Source: Chitinispirillum alkaliphilum (lineage in GTDB: Bacteria; Fibrobacterota; Chitinivibrionia; Chitinivibrionales; Chitinispirillaceae). From it: a DNA stretch of 64,000 bases. The stretch is from NCBI GenBank assembly GCA_001045525.1, contig LDWW01000012.1, positions 1 through 64,000 on the forward strand. The letters run 5' to 3'. A model generated the notes under the pieces. The model was given only the letters and a program-made list of their open reading frames with translations, was not told the DNA's origin and ran no database searches. This document shows positions 34,011 through 45,375 of the stretch, piece after piece. Each line of letters opens with the position of its first letter. Within the stretch, counting starts at the first letter, position 1. The translations under genes were made by a program, and so were the position numbers.

Positions 34011-36860
34011 ATGAAAACATTTTCGGTTATACTTTTTTTGATTGTATTTGCGTTTGGAGTCGAGGAAGAATTAAAACCAACTGCAAATGATTTTTCGTTC
34101 ATTGATGATTCGGAGATTGAGCTTATTGATGATTCGGAGATTGAGCTTATTGATGATTCGGAGATTGAGCTTATTGATGATTCGGAGATGGCGAGCTATG
34201 AAGAGGAAAGTGAGTTTTACGGGGTAGATGTTATGCCGACGCTAAAAACATTTATCAATGCGCACTACCCGGAGCATCTTTTAAGAGAAGGGGTTGAAGG
34301 AACCGTTCTGCTTGAACTGCTGATTGATGAAAGTGGATTGGTGGAGAGTGTGGAGGTTGTTGCCGGAGCAGACCCGGATTTCGACAGTTCTGCAGTCAGG
34401 GCTGCCAGAGATTTCGAGTTTACTCCAGCACAAGTGCAGGGTGAATCAGTTGCAGTGCTTCTTCAATATGAATACCACTTTACCCTTCATGAGGCTCAGA
34501 TAGAATTACAGGAAGTCAGAAATTTTGAGGGAAGATTGATTGAACGGGGTACACGTATCCCTGTTCAGGATGCTTTTATCGTTTTGAATTTTACAGATAC
34601 CCTGTGTGATGGTTCTCTCCCCTTACCACTTCAGCATTATTTAGAGAGAATCGCATCTTTTGAAGGACAATATATTGAGGAAAACAGGCTTGTAACGGTA
34701 AGTGATTCTTCCGGGCGCTTTAGTTTTTATTCCTTACCGTCATGTTCTGTCGAAATATCAGTGATTGTTCCCGGGTATCGTGAGTTTTCAACAAAGGAGT
34801 TTATTAGTGAAGGTGAACTAATTGACGCGGTATATCATGTGACACGTCACTCATACTCTGATTTTGAAATCCTTGTCTATGGCAGGGTAGAGGAGAAAGA
34901 GGTTAGCAGGAGGCAGTTGACTCTTGCCGAAGTGAGAAAAATCCCAGGCCTTGGGGGAGATGCAATAAAGGTAGTTCAGGCTATGCCCGGTGTGGCGCGT
35001 CCCCGAATGGGTAGTTCAGAAATTGTAGTGCGTGGAGCTCCGTCATGGGATTCAAGGTATTATCTGGATGGTGTCCCCATTCCCTTACTTTTTCATTTCG
35101 GTGGTTTAACATCTATCTACAACGCTGAGGCGCTCGAGTCTATTGATTTTTATCCCGGTGGTTTTGGCACCCGGTATGGTGGCGTTATAGGTGGTGTGGT
35201 TGAGATAAAGGGGCGAAAAGCAGAAACAGAACGCTGGAAAGGGCATCTGGATGTAAGTTCCATTGATGCAAGTGTGTTTGCTGAGGGGCCGGTTAGTGAC
35301 AATGTATCTGTACAGTTGTATGCAAACCGAAGTTATGTGGGTGAGTTATTGAATTTCCTTATTGATATAATGGAAAAGAGTGGAGATTTTGAATTCCCGA
35401 TCTCGCTGGCACCCTACTACTGGGATTACCTTGTACGAACAGATATAGACCTCAACAGCCAAAATCAGATGTATTTCTCTTTACTTGGATCTCTTGACAG
35501 TGTGGTGCTTGCCTATTCAGAAATGGCGGATATGGGAAGTTCTGAAATCGATGATTTGACTGATCATATGAGTTTAGGTATTTCGTTTCATCAGGCCACC
35601 TTTAACTGGGACCATATATTTTCCGAAATGCTGAGAAATTCTCTTACTTTGTCAGGAACAATGGGTCGCTTTAATTCATCAGTTTTTGGAATTGTGAAAG
35701 CAAATGAAAAATTCAGGATGTTCAATCTTCGGGATGAACTTAACTATACCCCAAACGATCGTTTTCGCTTTAATCTGGGAGTTGACCTGGAGCTTATAGT
35801 TACTGATTTGGAGCTCACTATTCCTCAGGGTAATCAGTCATTTGCAAGAGATACCACAAATGACTGGCTGTTTGGACTTGTAGGGACGTATCTGAATATG
35901 GAATTTAAACCAATTGAAAACCTTCTGATCATTCCCGGCATAAGATACGATTACTATCCTGAACTTGATTACAGAGGTGGTATCGTACCGGAATTCTGGC
36001 CCTATGATTTTATGAACAACCGAAGAGGTAAATCCGGAGAACCATCTTTCAGGCTAACCGGAAGATATGAGTTTATCCCCGGTAATACAATTAAAGCAGC
36101 AATTGGTACTTATAGCCAAACCCCTCAGCCTGTGGGACAGGTAATACATCCAACCTGGGGTAATCCTGCCCTCCCGGCAACGAAAGCCTCTCACTACGTT
36201 GCCGGTTATGAAAGACATCTTACTGATTTATTAAGCCTTGATGTTCAGGGATACTACAATTACCAGTGGGATGTGCCGCGAATGGCTGGTCAGGGTGATA
36301 TGGAAGATCGGGATTCTGAGCAGGCCTTGTGGACAAGAGATGGAACGGGAAGAATGTATGGATTGGAGCTAATGCTCAGACATGACAGAAGTGAACGCTT
36401 TTTTGGCTGGCTCACGTATACGCTTTCAAGAAGTGAGTATTTTAGCACAGTGGATAACAAATGGGCGCTTTTTAGCACCGATGAAACCCATAACATTCAG
36501 CTTCTGGCTTCCTGGCATCTTGACAGAGACTGGGATCTGGGATTCAGGTTACGATATGTTACAGGAAAACCATATACACCAATTGTTAACAGGGGGGAAA
36601 GTGAAAACTGGAAAGGATTTTTTCCCATATACGGGGACACAAATTCCGGCCGTTACAATCCTTTTTTCCAACTCGATCTGAGAGCTGACAAGAAGATCAT
36701 TTTTAATAACTTTATCTACTCTTTTTACGTCGATCTTCAGAATATCAGCTGGTTCCTGTATAAGAGCCCTGAGCAGTATTTTTATAATTACAATTACACC
36801 GAGAGACAATCTATTAGTATGATACCAATGCTTAGAACGGGTGTTAAAGTTGAATTCTAA
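34011..36860 (+). CDS. TonB-dependent receptor with an N-terminal TonB-C-like domain
   Basis: 949 residues. A signal peptide (1-16) is followed by an acidic IDDSEIEL tandem repeat (about 31-60), then a domain with the TonB C-terminal pattern (LREGVEGTVLLELLIDESGLVESVEV, AVRAARDFEFTPAQVQG; about 75-160). A carboxypeptidase-regulatory-like segment with RLIERGTRIPVQDAFIVL and GRFSFYSLP follows. The plug has KVVQAMPGVARPRMGSSEIVVRGAPSWDSRYYLDGVPIP. The beta-barrel ends in a terminal Phe (GVKVEF). It imports a ligand across the outer membrane using TonB. Carrying its own TonB-like domain is unusual. The substrate may be glucan-derived given the nearby glucanases, which is inference. Confidence 0.93.
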   Translation: MKTFSVILFLIVFAFGVEEELKPTANDFSFIDDSEIELIDDSEIELIDDSEIELIDDSEMASYEEESEFYGVDVMPTLKTFINAHYPEHLLREGVEGTVLLELLIDESGLVESVEVVAGADPDFDSSAVRAARDFEFTPAQVQGESVAVLLQYEYHFTLHEAQIELQEVRNFEGRLIERGTRIPVQDAFIVLNFTDTLCDGSLPLPLQHYLERIASFEGQYIEENRLVTVSDSSGRFSFYSLPSCSVEISVIVPGYREFSTKEFISEGELIDAVYHVTRHSYSDFEILVYGRVEEKEVSRRQLTLAEVRKIPGLGGDAIKVVQAMPGVARPRMGSSEIVVRGAPSWDSRYYLDGVPIPLLFHFGGLTSIYNAEALESIDFYPGGFGTRYGGVIGGVVEIKGRKAETERWKGHLDVSSIDASVFAEGPVSDNVSVQLYANRSYVGELLNFLIDIMEKSGDFEFPISLAPYYWDYLVRTDIDLNSQNQMYFSLLGSLDSVVLAYSEMADMGSSEIDDLTDHMSLGISFHQATFNWDHIFSEMLRNSLTLSGTMGRFNSSVFGIVKANEKFRMFNLRDELNYTPNDRFRFNLGVDLELIVTDLELTIPQGNQSFARDTTNDWLFGLVGTYLNMEFKPIENLLIIPGIRYDYYPELDYRGGIVPEFWPYDFMNNRRGKSGEPSFRLTGRYEFIPGNTIKAAIGTYSQTPQPVGQVIHPTWGNPALPATKASHYVAGYERHLTDLLSLDVQGYYNYQWDVPRMAGQGDMEDRDSEQALWTRDGTGRMYGLELMLRHDRSERFFGWLTYTLSRSEYFSTVDNKWALFSTDETHNIQLLASWHLDRDWDLGFRLRYVTGKPYTPIVNRGESENWKGFFPIYGDTNSGRYNPFFQLDLRADKKIIFNNFIYSFYVDLQNISWFLYKSPEQYFYNYNYTERQSISMIPMLRTGVKVEF
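34101..34189 (+). repeat. 24-bp in-frame tandem repeat (3.7 copies)
   Basis: Three exact units start at 34101, 34125 and 34149, then a 17-base partial copy to 34189. Each full unit encodes IDDSEIEL. The copies are identical at nucleotide level, pointing to recent slippage. Length changes would stay in frame. Confidence 0.95.
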
Positions 36861-38622: not shown

Positions 38623-40383
38623 TCAATAAATTACAACACGCTCACTAAATGTGTGACTGCAATCTCTGCAATCAATTTTTACCGTAAAAACACCAGGAGG
38701 TAACAGAGAAGGGAGAGCTACATTACTCTTCTCACCCGCAGAGACAGATCTGGTTTCTCTGAAAACCTCTCTTCCGTTTAGGCTGAAAAGCGATATCGTG
38801 TACTGTCCTGAAAGGTTGACCAAAAAATTAAAACCACTGTTTGTGATATTGTTCAGGCTAACTGAAGACAGGGGAGTGGCACCCCTGGATAACGGAGCAA
38901 TGGATACATCATCCACTTCATTTAAATGTCTGAGGCTTACGTTTTCGAATGTAATAGTGCCGCTCTCACCACCACCGCAATCAAAGAAAATACGGTTATC
39001 ACTGCCGGTATCCCCCGAATAGGTGAACGGAATTGTGAAATCCCCGGGTAATGCAGAGAGGCTGGTTTGTTCAGTTACATAGGGTTGCCAGGGAGCAGAA
39101 CTCATCCCTACACCTGCTGAAATTGTGCGGTTTCTGTCTGATGAGGCTGTAAAAGACAGCGCATACTTCTCTTCGGAAATTAAGGCTATATCATCCTGAT
39201 AGAAATTTACACTCCAGGGATCTTCGCCTCCGCTGTTGATCTTAACAACAGCCCTGTTATCGGAAAAACTGACCGAGCCGCTTCCACCCCCATTTGCAGA
39301 AGACCTCCAGCCGTAAGCTCCGCCAAGAAATTCTGAATTGGTTGCAACCTCGCTGCTGTCTTTGAAAAATGCGGCTATATCAATGTCCTGCCTTATAATC
39401 TGTGTTAATGGATTGCTTTTGCTGTTTGTTGTACCAGTCCAAAAATCAAAGACTTTTCCATTCTGTGGTTTAGCTGTGAAGATCACTTCTGTTCCGTGAG
39501 GATATTCTGAGGCTTCAGGCAGAACTGAAACTGTTCCACCTTCTGAAGATGAAACCGAAACTGAGTGGTCCCCAGTTCCTTCGAGCTGATACACTCTTAC
39601 ATATTCAATTTCCATGCGGACTGGAAATATGCTGTTATCCACTCCCTCTGCACCTCCCCAGTCTCCTCCAACCGCGACATTGAGCAGAAGATGAAATCTC
39701 TTATCAAACGGCCACTCTCTGTAAGTATAATCATCCCGGTTCTCAAAGGTGAAATAGATCGTATCATCGACCAGAAAATCTATCCGATCCTCATACCACT
39801 CTACAGCATAGGTATAAAACTGCTCCTCAGGATTGATAAAAAATGCGTACTCCCCGACCTGTGTGCCGATCATGTGATTGAAAGATTCGGTGTGAACAGT
39901 CCAGTGGATTACACCCGGATCATAACCCACATACTCCATTATATCTATCTCTCCGCTTGCTGGCCAGTTTCCGTATTCCCAGTCAGTGGGCAACATCCAT
40001 ATGGCTGGCCAGGTGCCTGTTCCACCCGGCAGTTTTGCTCTGACCTCAACTCTGCCATAAAGCCAGTCACCTTTTTGGGCGGTTCTGAGGCGGGCAGACG
40101 TGTACTCTCGTGTGGGGCCGTTGGGGTGGGTGTGCTGTTCTCTTCTGGCTTCAATTATTAACCTCCCATCCTCAACCCAGGCATTTGCCCCGGTTTCGTC
40201 TGTATAATTTTGAAGTTCATTGTTACCCCATGCCCACATATTACCATCAACATCGAAGCTCCACCTGTCGGGATCCGGTAAACCTGTATAATCAAACTCA
40301 TCCGACCACACAAGTGCCCAGTTCCTGGCTGAAGCACTGTTGCTTAAAAAAAGGCAAAGAATGAATCCCAGAATAAAGTTCAT
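38623..40383 (-). CDS. Secreted GH16 beta-1,3-glucanase (laminarinase) with CBM and T9SS-like C-terminus
   Basis: 586 residues. A signal peptide (1-19) is followed by a GH16 catalytic domain (20-275) with GEIDIMEYVG, where E145 is the nucleophile and E150 the acid/base. WPAIWMLP and WNNELQNYT-like substrate-cleft strings are also present. A beta repeat (GGTVSVLPEASEYPHGT), a CBM4/9-like module (about 345-490, GGAYGWRSSANGG to TITFENVSL) and a C-terminal sorting-like domain (ISLFSLNGREVFRE, LPPGVFTVKI) follow. It hydrolyses beta-1,3 or mixed-linkage glucan outside the cell. AAGGAG precedes the ATG. It lies about 100 bases downstream of the GH81 gene. Confidence 0.93.
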   Translation of the reverse strand: MNFILGFILCLFLSNSASARNWALVWSDEFDYTGLPDPDRWSFDVDGNMWAWGNNELQNYTDETGANAWVEDGRLIIEARREQHTHPNGPTREYTSARLRTAQKGDWLYGRVEVRAKLPGGTGTWPAIWMLPTDWEYGNWPASGEIDIMEYVGYDPGVIHWTVHTESFNHMIGTQVGEYAFFINPEEQFYTYAVEWYEDRIDFLVDDTIYFTFENRDDYTYREWPFDKRFHLLLNVAVGGDWGGAEGVDNSIFPVRMEIEYVRVYQLEGTGDHSVSVSSSEGGTVSVLPEASEYPHGTEVIFTAKPQNGKVFDFWTGTTNSKSNPLTQIIRQDIDIAAFFKDSSEVATNSEFLGGAYGWRSSANGGGSGSVSFSDNRAVVKINSGGEDPWSVNFYQDDIALISEEKYALSFTASSDRNRTISAGVGMSSAPWQPYVTEQTSLSALPGDFTIPFTYSGDTGSDNRIFFDCGGGESGTITFENVSLRHLNEVDDVSIAPLSRGATPLSSVSLNNITNSGFNFLVNLSGQYTISLFSLNGREVFRETRSVSAGEKSNVALPSLLPPGVFTVKIDCRDCSHTFSERVVIY

Positions 40384-40483: not shown

Positions 40484-43057
40484 TTAACGCACAACCGAAA
40501 TCCTGCGGCTAACCTGCATTCCTTCAGCTTCTACCGAAACAGTATAGATACCATTGGCAAGTCTGGTGTGCCGTCCGGCATCGATTATATGGGTTCCGGC
40601 CTGAATACCGTTTTTGTTTATCTGGGCGACTCTTGAACCCCTGAGATCATAAAAACTTACCATTATATCAGATGTTTGTGTTGTGTTGATGATGATATTT
40701 GTCCCTTTCACCGTTAAGCGGGCCGGGGTCTGGCGAAGAGCAGGAAGAGAGGTCTTTACCTGGTCTCCACTTCGCAGTGCAATGAGTGTATCTGCGGGAA
40801 TTTCAAACTGAAGTCCATCAGAAAAGGTCACCGTGACAGGGTGTTCCCTGTGGTTATATACCACATAGGTTTTTTCACCATCATTGTCAAACACCCCAAA
40901 ATTTGGAATGTCCGCTGTAATGTTTCGGTCCACTTGCCCCATTGCCAAGAGGTTATGAATGTGGTGATAGGTGTGTGCGCGACTTGCACCCTCCTCGACT
41001 GCATAACGATCCCTTTCAGACTCAAATTCAACAGCCGCCCTCTGAGGATCTGCATAAGCAAGATAGCACCAAAGAACGTCTCTCCAGAACACAAGCTCCC
41101 CCCCTTTTTCCCGCTCCATTTCTGCATAGTTTTCCAACACATACTCCGGGTAATGACCCAGATAGTTTGATGCACCGGTCACAGGAAGGAAATTTATCCC
41201 GCGAATCATCTCCGGCTCAGCACTGAACCATGTAGCATAATCAATTTTTCCGCCCCAAATCATACCTGCTGCATTTTTGGGATAATCGCCGGGAAATGTA
41301 GCCTTATCAACATCAAACCAGTAATTTTGAACCGCTTCAACTTCGGTTGAATAAAGGTAAGCACCCAGATCCCTCAGTTCATCATTGCCGGTAACCGTTC
41401 CCCAGAGTGCCACACTGGCTGCAAAGTTTATCGCCTCAGAAGAAGACTCCTGATTGTTTCCATCCCCAAAATTGGCGTGTCCTGAGGCCCAGCTGTGTCC
41501 TGCATATGGATCAAAGGTGCGCAGAAATGGTGAAAACCCTTCTCCTCTGTGAGTGTTCACACAGTTTCTGATTATCAGCTCTACCATCCCACCCCAGTTC
41601 TCCTGACTTGCCCATTCACGGTCATATTGGGCAATAAGTGCTGCACCCTGGATGAAATACCCATAGTGGAAATGATGATCGTTTAACCCATTTGCTGCAT
41701 TGAAACTTGAAGGATACCCAAGAAGAACACCCCATTCGCTGTTGTGATAAAATATCTCTGAAGCGGAATTCGGCTCTGCAGTAAACCAACTCTCAAGCCG
41801 CTCCTTTAGGGTGTGGAGGAAAAAGTCGCGTGCTTCGATATCTCCTATCTGATCTGCAATCCTTACGAGCAGTGCTGCCCGGCCAAACTCTTTGCCTGTC
41901 CAGTAAGTGTCACCGTTTCTGCGTATGAGAACTTCTGCCGGCAGAGTACTCATTTCATTCACATAGCTTTGAAGCTGTGAATGATCAAAACTATCACTCC
42001 ATTCATAAGCTGAGGGCATAGAGGGAAGAATACCAGTATAGGGGATTTCTGTGCTGAAATGATTGCCCCTCATAACTTTCATCTCACCTCTGGGACTCAC
42101 ATAGCTGTGGTTGGTTAATGAGGCAGAACTGTTTTTCCACTGATGATAATAAAGTGCCATTATGGCTTGGTCCCCGCTTCCTTCCATTATCTCTGTTTCA
42201 ACATTGAAATCAGTTATCACGATACTTCTGTCCATATCATAGTGCCAGGACACTTCTGTGTTTCTCACAAAAGCAAAAGCATGTTGAGCAAACAGATCAA
42301 GTGTAGTCTGTTTGTTGTCAGGAAGAACAGCAACAGAATAGTACTGCTTTCCCCCAAGATCAGAGGTAAGCGTCTGGTCATCGATGCTCCAGCTTGAACC
42401 TGAAGGGGCGAAAATTCCATAATGACGGGTACCAATAGTGATACCAAGCATGTTTCCACCGTTGTGCCATATTAGTGGAGCTCCGGCTGCAACAATACGC
42501 GCCGGTGTGCCATCCGTTTCAGCATACACGAAAGGTAAACCGTGTCCGTAAGTTACTCGAAAGGCACCTTCACTCCAGGCGGCTGTCTGAGTCCAGTCAG
42601 AATAATCGTGGAGCTTTGTGGATAGGCTGTTGAGGTTTTCAACACCCAAAACCAGATCAAGAGGCAACCCGTATATGGCGTGAGCCAGATGAGTATATCC
42701 CGCAACTTCCGGAATGGCAACGTAATGCTCATTGGCATAGCCAATTGCCAAACCGTCGGATCGTGTTTCGAGGCCCAGAGGATGGGGAAACATCGTATGG
42801 GAATGAGGGTGCGATGCATTCCGTTGAAACACAAGCGATGTACCCCATCCGTTTGTTGGAACTGCGCCTGTAATATTGTCGGTTATTGATGGTGATATCG
42901 GACTGCCGTCATTGTCACCATCGGTTGGTCCCTGCATGCCCGGTGGTGGGGAAGAGGTGTATGAACCTGCTCCAACCTGTACGATTTGTGAGAAGGGTAC
43001 GGCATAGAACAGAAACAGTGCGATTAATACAGCGCTGGCTGTCTTTAAATTCTTCAT
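40484..43057 (-). CDS. Secreted GH81 endo-beta-1,3-glucanase with T9SS-like C-terminus
   Basis: 857 residues with a signal peptide (1-23). The body shows the GH81 family pattern: YTHLAHAIYGLPLDLVLG, EVLIRRNGDTYWTGKEFGRAALL, NDHHFHYGYFIQGAALIAQYD, and the catalytic region GHSWASGHANFGDGNNQESSSEAINF with its Glu residues. The last 75 residues (VSFYDLRGSRVAQI, LANGIYTVSVEAEG) resemble a type A sorting domain. It cleaves internal beta-1,3 linkages of fungal or algal glucans and complements GH16. AAGGAG lies upstream of the ATG. Confidence 0.92.
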   Translation of the reverse strand: MKNLKTASAVLIALFLFYAVPFSQIVQVGAGSYTSSPPPGMQGPTDGDNDGSPISPSITDNITGAVPTNGWGTSLVFQRNASHPHSHTMFPHPLGLETRSDGLAIGYANEHYVAIPEVAGYTHLAHAIYGLPLDLVLGVENLNSLSTKLHDYSDWTQTAAWSEGAFRVTYGHGLPFVYAETDGTPARIVAAGAPLIWHNGGNMLGITIGTRHYGIFAPSGSSWSIDDQTLTSDLGGKQYYSVAVLPDNKQTTLDLFAQHAFAFVRNTEVSWHYDMDRSIVITDFNVETEIMEGSGDQAIMALYYHQWKNSSASLTNHSYVSPRGEMKVMRGNHFSTEIPYTGILPSMPSAYEWSDSFDHSQLQSYVNEMSTLPAEVLIRRNGDTYWTGKEFGRAALLVRIADQIGDIEARDFFLHTLKERLESWFTAEPNSASEIFYHNSEWGVLLGYPSSFNAANGLNDHHFHYGYFIQGAALIAQYDREWASQENWGGMVELIIRNCVNTHRGEGFSPFLRTFDPYAGHSWASGHANFGDGNNQESSSEAINFAASVALWGTVTGNDELRDLGAYLYSTEVEAVQNYWFDVDKATFPGDYPKNAAGMIWGGKIDYATWFSAEPEMIRGINFLPVTGASNYLGHYPEYVLENYAEMEREKGGELVFWRDVLWCYLAYADPQRAAVEFESERDRYAVEEGASRAHTYHHIHNLLAMGQVDRNITADIPNFGVFDNDGEKTYVVYNHREHPVTVTFSDGLQFEIPADTLIALRSGDQVKTSLPALRQTPARLTVKGTNIIINTTQTSDIMVSFYDLRGSRVAQINKNGIQAGTHIIDAGRHTRLANGIYTVSVEAEGMQVSRRISVVR

Positions 43058-43230: not shown

Positions 43231-44475
43231 CTAATCTGCAAAATGAGACTGGTCTATTCCTATCAGAAAAATATTGTCCAGTCCGAGTTCAATTTCACTA
43301 CCTGGCTCAGCCCATGAACCAAACACAATAGCCCGAACTGAATCTTTTGCGTCCTGCCAGGTTTTGCCCTCTTCCTCAATCCGCGAGTCGGGCTCCGGCA
43401 TAAGCTCTTCTACTCCAATGGTATAGAGCTGCCACCAGTCCTGAGCTTCGAGGACGACACCGAAATCACCGCGTCGTGTGCTCTGTTCATTTTTATCTAC
43501 CAACGCTGTAATGAGGTTCATTCTAACCGTACCTGTTCCTCTCATCATGAAACTGATAGCTTTGAGATCTGAAAAATCCACATATTCCCGATCCTGGTTC
43601 CCCAACCTGCAACCCACACTTGCATAGGGAATCTCTGTTGAGTCAGAGAGTATGAAACGTACGGACAATGATCTGCCCTCATATGCGTTCTCTTCGCTTA
43701 GTGCATTTTCCAGATTTTCTGGTTCGATTACCGACCCTTCACCTTCGGTGTAGGCATACCAGTAAGAACTCCCTGTCAGCCAGTCTAAATTGCTCCGTAT
43801 AATTCCGTCATTGAAATCATCGAGCATAATTCCGTCGGAAATTACCTTAAGCTCAACATTTTCAATATTACTGCCCGGGTGAAGAAAAAGTCCTCTTGCA
43901 TAGGTGATAAGATTCTTTTCTTCTGAAGAAAACTCTGCATAAAGCTGAACTTCATCGGAAGGAACAGAAATAAATCTGAAACTGCCATCCTCAGCTATAG
44001 GGCTGTTCAGGTGTGTGTTTTTAATGCGGACAGCAGTTGGGGTAAATGAATCGCCACGCACTTTTCCCGAAACAGATGCAGATGGTGTAAGTTCAAGAAT
44101 ATCAAGGTCTACCATACTTTTAAGATCAACAGTAATATCCTGTTCTATAAATGAACTGTCATCAGAGATGCTTAAAACGGTATATTCACCCGTTTGGATA
44201 TCAGTAAATCTAAACTTGCCATCGCTGCCGGTTTCAATGGAATCGATTGAAATTTGGTTACTTATAACATCTTTTTCCCAGCTATCACTCCTGATTAAAA
44301 ACACCTGCACACCAGCTTTGTTCGCTCCAGCGGAAACCACCTTGCCCATGATACCGTTTGTTACCTCTGAACCACTGCTGGTATCAGTAAGATCAACACT
44401 TGAACAGTATATCATAAATACTGAAATAACAAATAGATAGCAGACTGACTTTAACATTCTTTCAATTTTCTTCAT
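43231..44475 (-). CDS. Surface lipoprotein with carboxypeptidase-regulatory-like and CBM11/CIA30-like domains
   Basis: 414 residues. The ATG at 44475 has AGGA upstream and overlaps the regulator gene's end by 14 bases. A lipobox-like FMIYC follows the signal. Two small beta-sandwich units follow (GIMGKVVSAGANKAGVQVFL, DGKFRFTDIQTGEYTVL; ASVSGKVRGDSFTPTAVRI, DGSFRFISVP). The C-terminal half has DDFNDGIIRSNLDWLTGSSYW, YVDFSDLKAISFMMRGTG and IELGLDNIFLIG, typical of CBM11/CIA30-like galactose-binding folds. It probably binds glucan at the surface beside GH81/GH16. Binding is inferred. Confidence 0.82.
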   Translation of the reverse strand: MKKIERMLKSVCYLFVISVFMIYCSSVDLTDTSSGSEVTNGIMGKVVSAGANKAGVQVFLIRSDSWEKDVISNQISIDSIETGSDGKFRFTDIQTGEYTVLSISDDSSFIEQDITVDLKSMVDLDILELTPSASVSGKVRGDSFTPTAVRIKNTHLNSPIAEDGSFRFISVPSDEVQLYAEFSSEEKNLITYARGLFLHPGSNIENVELKVISDGIMLDDFNDGIIRSNLDWLTGSSYWYAYTEGEGSVIEPENLENALSEENAYEGRSLSVRFILSDSTEIPYASVGCRLGNQDREYVDFSDLKAISFMMRGTGTVRMNLITALVDKNEQSTRRGDFGVVLEAQDWWQLYTIGVEELMPEPDSRIEEEGKTWQDAKDSVRAIVFGSWAEPGSEIELGLDNIFLIGIDQSHFAD

Positions 44476-45292
44476 GTCCAAGTATTCCTGTAAGGGGAAC
44501 TATCTGTATATTAACCTGATAGACTATGTCTGAGGGGCTGTTTCCTGTGTGCATCTGAAGAAGTGACTTACGGAATTCCGATGCACGCGCTTTGATTTCT
44601 TCCAAGTCCTTGTGAGATACCGAAATAGTTACCGATGAAATATCCCGGATCTCCTTAGTATGTCTGTCAAGAGACTCTCTGGCCATAGATATGGTCTCTT
44701 TCTGAAACGCATGGATAGCAGGGGAGTGCCACTTCTCACCCGTTGTAATCGTTTTGTCTGTAAGAACAAAGAAACCAAGCTTATCCCTCTTTATAAACCC
44801 CATTGAAAGAAGGAGGCTTATTGAGTCCTCTGCCTGTTTTTCGGTTATTGGCGGAGACAAAAGCTTTGCCAACTCTTTATAATCACCCTGAAACGAATAA
44901 TAAGAAAGCAAAGCCCTGATCGCATTATGGTACCAGTGTGAGTAAAATTCATATTGACGATCTTCAACCCGATTCATGTCAATACCACGCAGAGCCATGA
45001 TACGTTCAAATAAAAACTCACACTCTTTTCCTGTTTTCGCTTTAGCAAATCTAACCAACAGATCAAAGTATTCAGCTTCCCTGGCTTCCAGTTTCAAAAA
45101 CCTGACAATTACAGGAATCGACTTGTTGGATATATTGGCTTTTCCCTGAAGTACCTTCACCAGAAAACCAGCATCCAGATTAAGCTTATTTCCCATATAT
45201 CTGTATGAAAAATATGAGCTTTGATCTTTCTTATACTCATAAAAATCTTTCAGATACAGTTGGTAGTCGAGGTATTCAAATATCGGTTTCAT
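44462..45292 (-). CDS. TIGR02147/DUF4423 family regulator
   Basis: 276 residues starting MKPIFEYLDYQLYLKDFY. It matches the TIGR02147 family (a large paralogous set in Fibrobacter): an HTH-like N-terminus (FSYRYMGNKLNLDAGFLVKVLQGKANIS), then an all-helical middle with EAEYFDLLVRFAKAKT, and the DUF4423 region SLLLSMGFIKRDKLGFFVLTDKTITTG to IRDISSVTISVSHKDLEEIKARASEFRKSL. The family is thought to be DNA-binding and cytoplasmic. It ends inside the start of the lipoprotein gene, so the two are coupled. A palindrome at 45356-45375 may be its operator. Confidence 0.88.
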   Translation of the reverse strand: MKPIFEYLDYQLYLKDFYEYKKDQSSYFSYRYMGNKLNLDAGFLVKVLQGKANISNKSIPVIVRFLKLEAREAEYFDLLVRFAKAKTGKECEFLFERIMALRGIDMNRVEDRQYEFYSHWYHNAIRALLSYYSFQGDYKELAKLLSPPITEKQAEDSISLLLSMGFIKRDKLGFFVLTDKTITTGEKWHSPAIHAFQKETISMARESLDRHTKEIRDISSVTISVSHKDLEEIKARASEFRKSLLQMHTGNSPSDIVYQVNIQIVPLTGILGHEEN

Positions 45293-45355
45293 GTCTACTA
45301 ATATAGCCGTATTTGCTGAGGAATGTAAGCTTTAGTGATGTCTTATTGTACAAAC

Positions 45356-45375
45356 TGTTGAAAACTATTTCAACA
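45356..45375. promoter_or_regulatory. Palindrome upstream of the TIGR02147 gene, candidate operator
   Basis: TGTTGAAA (45356-45363), four bases, TTTCAACA (45368-45375): a perfect dyad 64 bases before the regulator's ATG. It is suitably sized for a homodimeric HTH protein, so autoregulation is a reasonable guess. Confidence 0.4.

Follow-up and report, generated by a model that had tools for sequence, protein, structure and literature searches.

Within the 64,000-nt stretch of DNA analyzed here (the window, from Fibrobacterota contig G000:C12), the minus strand carries, in transcription order, a TIGR02147/DUF4423 gene, a lipoprotein gene, a GH81 gene and a GH16 gene. This arrangement raises the question of what a regulator from a family that is so far a name only does at the head of a set of glucanases, and whether regulator, lipoprotein and enzymes form a single unit of control. 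The features that bear on the answer are listed below in window coordinates.

45356..45375, either strand: dyad TGTTGAAA-TAGT-TTTCAACA, perfect 8-bp arms, predicted operator
45345..45373, minus strand: alternative promoter TTGAAA-17-TACAAT, its -35 inside the dyad
45300..45305, minus strand: predicted -10 box (TATATT), ending 7 nt short of the regulator ATG and 66 bp from the dyad centre
44462..45292, minus strand: TIGR02147/DUF4423 regulator with HigA/XRE-type HTH, winged helix and C-terminal part (profile matches, structure model)
45149..45172, minus strand: regulator codons 41-48, predicted recognition helix (DAGFLVKVLQG region), co-varying with the operator half-site
44462..44475, minus strand: regulator end and lipoprotein start, 14-nt overlap
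43231..44475, minus strand: lipoprotein with signal peptide and Cys24, two Ig-like sandwiches (residues 41-128 and 133-211) and a CBM11-like jelly roll (215-408) (structure model)
40484..43057, minus strand: GH81 endo-beta-1,3-glucanase with a weak T9SS-type tail (PF17652)
38623..40383, minus strand: GH16 glucanase with a CBM4/9-type domain and a weak T9SS-type tail (PF00722)

Inspection of the gene calls bore out the gene set and coordinates of a first-pass annotation of this DNA, except for the lipoprotein start. The proposal that the regulator gene ends inside the start of the lipoprotein gene holds, although the ATG at 44475, which gives the 14-nt overlap, is a better lipoprotein start than the upstream TTG at 44481; use of the second ATG would put the start 4 nt past the regulator end. 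The overlap suggests translational coupling. The two glucanases proposed downstream on the same strand are confirmed by Pfam matches and coordinates, the C-terminal catalytic domain of GH81 (PF17652) scoring 209.8 bits against a cut-off of 25.6 and the GH16 domain (PF00722) 86.3 bits against a cut-off of 22, with EIDIME (ExDxxE motif) present in the translation. The GH81 gene, the sole one of the genome, lies 173 nt beyond the lipoprotein gene and 100 nt ahead of GH16; no terminator-like site was found in either gap, and a separate GH81 promoter could be hidden in the 173-nt one.

The regulator (open reading frame 45292-44462) is a clear member of its family, matching the NCBIfam profile TIGR02147 (Fsuc_second) over its full length (272.1 bits, cut-off 50) and Pfam DUF4423 at 120.7 bits (cut-off 30). 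A search for TIGR02147 by name found no paper in open-access text, whose silence does not prove that nothing is known, and DUF4423 made one appearance, as the up-regulated Bdellovibrio protein Bd3700 (PMC12546842). Searching PDB by sequence gave nothing convincing, and plasmid records and PHROGs were without match. In an AlphaFold2 model built from 64 sequences (pTM 0.54, domain packing uncertain), the HTH formed by the first 70-80 residues resembles the HigA/XRE type, with VIA-align Z scores of up to 9.1 to HigA antitoxins over alignments of ~85 residues at an rmsd of 5-7, some of which span residues far apart; the assignment of a HigA/XRE-type DNA-binding fold is also backed by a covariation between helix and DNA half-site described below. 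The model further contains a winged helix of ArsR/MecI type (Z about 7). No structural match to its full length was found, and no membrane segment was seen in it.

TIGR02147 genes are present in 51 of the 61 genomes searched, and the proposed expansion of the family is evident from 8 copies in the window genome and 0 to at least 34 in its relatives. A named scan returned Fibrobacterota plus one Candidatus Raymondbacteria contig, on which the regulator is likewise paired with a lipoprotein. In the window genome, a lipoprotein gene comes directly after every one of the eight copies. In an initial set of 124 distinct regulators, weighted to best-scoring and Fibrobacter loci, an automatic test identified a lipoprotein downstream of 115, and reading by eye added three; an offset of -4 (ATGA overlap) was the mode, accounting for 55 of the 115 pairs. 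Because this set was skewed, nearly all copies in nine genomes were also counted. In this census the lipoprotein lies directly downstream of 65 of 75 regulators (8/8, 7/11, 0/2, 16/18, 16/16, 10/12, 3/3, 2/2 and 3/3 per genome; three automatic misses were read by eye), and a lipoprotein of the same kind adjoins 69 of the 75 in some order, four pairs being rearranged (convergent at L164 and L282, divergent at L280, lipoprotein-first at L284). The unpaired regulators are L156, L163, L173, L270 and L273, together with L154, which appears decayed. Among 281 control genes of the same loci, a permissive lipoprotein test was positive for 34, many of them evident false positives, and none showed a -4 overlap with a lipoprotein gene.

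When the lipoprotein served as the query, the compared matches that cover its N-terminal half sit beside TIGR02147 genes, and matches to residues 210-411 alone are other proteins. Regulators and lipoprotein N-termini also co-diverge (Mantel r 0.35, p 2e-4, n=59). Regulator and lipoprotein constitute a conserved unit, as the first-pass annotation had supposed for the window, and their pairing is the rule across the phylum. An apparent 858-aa regulator fusion at L172 proved to be an artefact of a run of N. Elsewhere in the window genome, L042 and L043 (contigs C5 and C18) hold near-identical regulator-lipoprotein pairs, each beside a divergent gene for a large secreted protein of ~1107-1110 aa that is also near-identical; judged from sequence, the two are probably a recent duplication of the whole cassette.

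The window lipoprotein begins with a hydrophobic signal helix up to Cys24, and helix and cysteine are invariant in 22 of 22 homologues; its putative lipobox, FMIY-C, is non-canonical at -1, a position at which unusual residues (K, R, Y, H, N) are frequent in this family. In an AlphaFold2 model (pLDDT 88.6, pTM 0.81), two Ig/transthyretin-like sandwiches precede a jelly roll, for which CBM11 modules (1v0a, 6r3m, 6r31), among them complexes with mixed-linkage glucan, are the best structural matches. Residues 215-408 align with CtCBM11 at a Foldseek E of 1e-8 and a target TM of 0.74; unlike CtCBM11 (1v0a, 6r3m), the domain is borne by a lipoprotein rather than an enzyme, shares 18% identity with it, and has no Pfam match, the CBM11 sequence profile giving none at E 0.1. 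The CBM11/CIA30-like and regulatory-like domains first proposed for this protein are upheld by the model, as a CBM11 fold and Ig-like sandwiches, and not at the level of sequence profiles, where the CarboxypepD_reg match (27.4 bits) also falls under the Pfam gathering score of 32.3. On the strength of the model, we regard the protein as a putative glucan binder with a CBM11-type fold.

Lipoproteins of the family share a signal peptide, the cysteine and a linker in which a motif close to [ST]E[TV]xN recurs, followed next in 46 of 63 by a CarboxypepD_reg domain and then by variable parts: ConA-like lectin (13), DUF2341 (8), PL4 domain II (6), and also LRR, kelch and pectate lyase. Lipoproteins with CarboxypepD-type domains were detected in the S85 envelope proteome (PMC6851124); they could not be assigned here to regulator loci.

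The first-pass annotation had further proposed a substrate-specific unit of regulator, lipoprotein and enzymes. Across the family, enzymes are an optional part of the cassettes. Of the genes next downstream of 66 cassettes, 39 are co-directional (30 of which look secreted by a crude test) and 26 are on the opposite strand. The proposal stands for the pair, and for GH81 near regulators in three other genomes, and not for enzymes as a general rule. This variability lends some weight to a different explanation, which we consider somewhat unlikely: the pair would be a general surface module, serving adhesion or surface variation without any special link to glycans, and GH81 and GH16 would be chance or loose neighbors. 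The opposite-strand genes fit such a module, as does the presence among third genes of C25 and M12 peptidases, FGE and an arylsulfotransferase; against it, many third genes are glycoside hydrolases (GH9, GH5, GH43, GH16, GH116 and a weak GH59 match), many of the lipoproteins carry lectin-like domains, and the window lipoprotein has its CBM11 fold.

The distribution of GH81 also weighs against a general module. GH81 occurs in five of the 61 genomes, which excludes it as a companion of the whole TIGR02147 family. In each of the three other genomes with long enough contigs (G024, G025 and G031), a GH81 gene and a TIGR02147 gene are no more than 10 kb apart, making four of four informative genomes with the window's; G024 has the same order of regulator, lipoprotein and GH81, with further GH81 genes, and the arrangement in G025 and G031 is convergent. 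Given a copy density of about 4-9% per 20 kb, this co-location is unlikely by chance, and a beta-1,3-glucan link for the window locus is consequently plausible. The GH81-linked regulators do not form one clade with the window's, ranking 21 (G031) and 116 (G024) of 211. For GH16 the co-location is mild, with about 9 of 45 genes, several of them clustered, within 10 kb of a TIGR02147 gene against roughly 7% expected from copy density, an excess small enough to suit a general module. TIGR02147 copy number, in turn, tracks GH16 (rho 0.68) and GH5 (0.47) counts, which speaks for a glycan link, though it tracks genome size (0.63) too. All eight genomes of genus g10 (G010, G015, G018-G023; 2.0-2.9 Mb) have 5-9 GH5 genes and no TIGR02147; the system is thus not required for cellulases, a point on the side of the general module.

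Two further loci may be recorded here. At L240 (G031:C52:308700-315500), a regulator-lipoprotein pair is followed by three co-directional GH16 genes, a candidate second beta-glucan locus; at L227 (G024:C95), secreted proteins, GH81 enzymes among them, are encoded in a long co-directional series behind a pair, in a layout that resembles a polysaccharide-utilisation locus.

How might such a unit be switched? The perfect dyad reported ahead of the regulator is confirmed: TGTTGAAATAGTTTTCAACA spans 20 bp (45375-45356), 63 nt before the regulator ATG. Arms this long arise in about 7% of shuffled upstream regions, so that the window dyad alone is only mildly improbable, and its significance derives from the pattern across the family. 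For regulators outside Fibrobacter, perfect dyads with arms of at least 7 lie upstream of 42 of 131, compared with 26 of 179 controls and 31 of 655 shuffles; those with an outer TGT or GTT precede 19 of 131 regulators and 4 of 179 controls, three of these four being regulators' own sites re-read and the fourth also lying in a regulator locus. Related regulators are preceded by YGT...ACR dyads. Clean dyads are absent from most regulators, and none of this type occurs at the lipoprotein-first L284 or the divergent L280.

In 12 of 19 cases (arms of at least 7), the end of a TATATT-like -10 lies at a distance of exactly 56 or 66 bp from the dyad centre, against a permutation mean of 1.1 with 0 of 2000 permutations as high, and a relaxed dyad definition puts 28 of 124 regulators in the 56/66-bp bins over a background of 0.7 per position. 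This phasing was not found in Fibrobacter proper, and when palindromes were scanned as an ensemble at every -10 box with the YGT rule dropped, only weak peaks emerged. One helical turn separates the two registers, which center the dyad at about -62 and -72, as in class-I activators, a geometry that favors an activator. A predicted -10 that ends ~7-8 nt ahead of the start codon, seen at the window (45290-45305), L034, L063 and L265, would make the regulator mRNAs leaderless or nearly so.

Half-site positions 4-7 follow the type of recognition helix: SGLYKD-type helices go with TGTTC, GFLxKVLQG with TGTTGAA (the window and L265), GFFxNxxQ with TGTTTTC, SFYVKVLQK with TGTGGAA and SSFLKxxIDG with TGTAYAC. 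Half-site and helix similarity correlate at r 0.45, and at a partial r of 0.32 (p 2e-4) when C-terminal similarity is held constant in a partial Mantel test, a control that lowers the contribution of shared ancestry and does not eliminate it. The L265 regulator (G006:C1), 49% identical to the window's, has upstream a 40-bp near-perfect palindrome that includes TGTTGAACATAACTTCAACA, the TGTTGAA half-site being that of the window. As read from these sequence patterns, the window dyad is very probably the operator of its regulator. The expectation of conserved upstream dyads accordingly holds for their architecture and 56/66-bp register; conservation of the dyad as a sequence is rejected, the sequence varying with the recognition helix. 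In the 4.43-Mb genome the exact operator has a single copy and so looks like a dedicated local switch; a wider regulon was discarded, sites with two mismatches being about as numerous as for controls.

A good promoter that overlaps the dyad makes repression the main mechanistic rival to activation. The regulator, bound to the dyad, would cover the -35 of TTGAAA-17-TACAAT and block the operon until released by a ligand; this promoter scores 10/12, among the best in 8.6 kb, the regulator HTH has its structural match in HigA-type proteins, and such proteins are usually autorepressors. A promoter overlapping the dyad is not common to the relatives, in which the fixed 56/66-bp distance to a downstream -10 places the dyad ahead of the promoter instead of on top of it, and we therefore find autorepression doubtful.

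Starting from the gene pair, the architecture and phasing of the operators, the helix-operator covariation and the folds, all of them computational observations, we infer with a probability of about 0.6 that this is a surface operon which regulates itself and is dedicated to a substrate, and in which a TIGR02147 activator acts on its own dyad to express a glucan-holding lipoprotein and, by read-through, GH81 and GH16. The TIGR02147 protein, a transcription factor of the one-component kind, would occupy the 20-bp dyad ahead of its own promoter; most probably acting as an activator rather than a repressor, it would switch on itself and the translationally coupled lipoprotein, with read-through supplying the two enzymes. 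The lipoprotein would be exposed at the surface of the outer membrane, its CBM11-like domain holding beta-glucan, probably beta-1,3-glucan; the secreted enzymes would cut this substrate, and an entering product, plausibly an imported oligosaccharide sensed in the cytoplasm, probably acts on the regulator.

That the lipoprotein is instead a sensor, relaying a surface state or a signal-sequence peptide to its paired regulator, gains from near-obligate pairing despite changes of gene order and from co-divergence, which speak for a partnership over a simple target gene, and from the conserved linker motif after the lipid-anchored cysteine, but it is improbable given a regulator model without a membrane segment, no relay protein in sight, no RNPP-type structure among the matches listed, and joint inheritance as another source of co-divergence. 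A broader extension of the self-activated operon may be offered tentatively, as a proposal that we rather doubt: Fibrobacterota would run their surface functions through independent, autoactivated regulator-operator-lipoprotein cassettes throughout the phylum instead of SusCD, with a legible helix-DNA code and with the state of the lipoprotein reaching the regulator as a sensory partner.

The locus resembles several known systems in part. Like HigA/XRE autoregulators, the window regulator combines an HTH fold with a dyad operator in front of its own gene, both predicted; unlike them, it also has a winged helix and a C-terminal part, its partner is a lipoprotein and not a toxin, and the operator position suggests activation. 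SusCD-type loci similarly bring together a local regulator (HTCS, SusR or ECF/anti-sigma), a surface glycan-binding lipoprotein (predicted here) and secreted hydrolases, whereas the window has a soluble one-component regulator whose gene overlaps that of the lipoprotein, enzymes are optional, and the operon lacks a SusC/SusD pair, in agreement with the distinction drawn in the first-pass annotation. The nearest gene of TonB-receptor type (34011-36860) lies on the plus strand, convergent with the glucan operon, and the gene beside it has no Pfam match. The product of this TonB-receptor-like gene, 949 aa long, unites a TonB C-terminal domain (PF03544) and the plug of a TonB-dependent receptor (PF07715) in a single chain. 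The tie between an HTH regulator and a lipoprotein gene also recalls lipoprotein-derived pheromones and RNPP regulators, a resemblance only: RNPP regulators have TPR peptide-binding domains, and the matches listed for the window regulator model include no C-terminal domain of that kind. From the sequence comparisons, local one-component control of a surface glycan-binding operon would be the known part of the system, and an uncharacterised regulator family with a near-obligate lipoprotein partner and no SusCD the new part; neither that partner, nor the operator architecture, nor the helix-to-site relation is described for TIGR02147 in any paper found.

With near-universal pairing, enzyme genes headed by the pair here, and a DNA site that matches the regulator helix across the family, the pair at the window looks like a dedicated, self-switched control unit. 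The genome paper on Fibrobacter succinogenes S85 left the transcriptional control of cellulases as an unanswered question, with few recognisable regulators nearby (PMC3079729). TIGR02147 regulators, at up to dozens of copies per genome, each come with one surface lipoprotein and often with hydrolases; their predicted operators and the relation between helix and half-site make the question of cellulase control directly testable, and give DUF4423 a concrete function to test.
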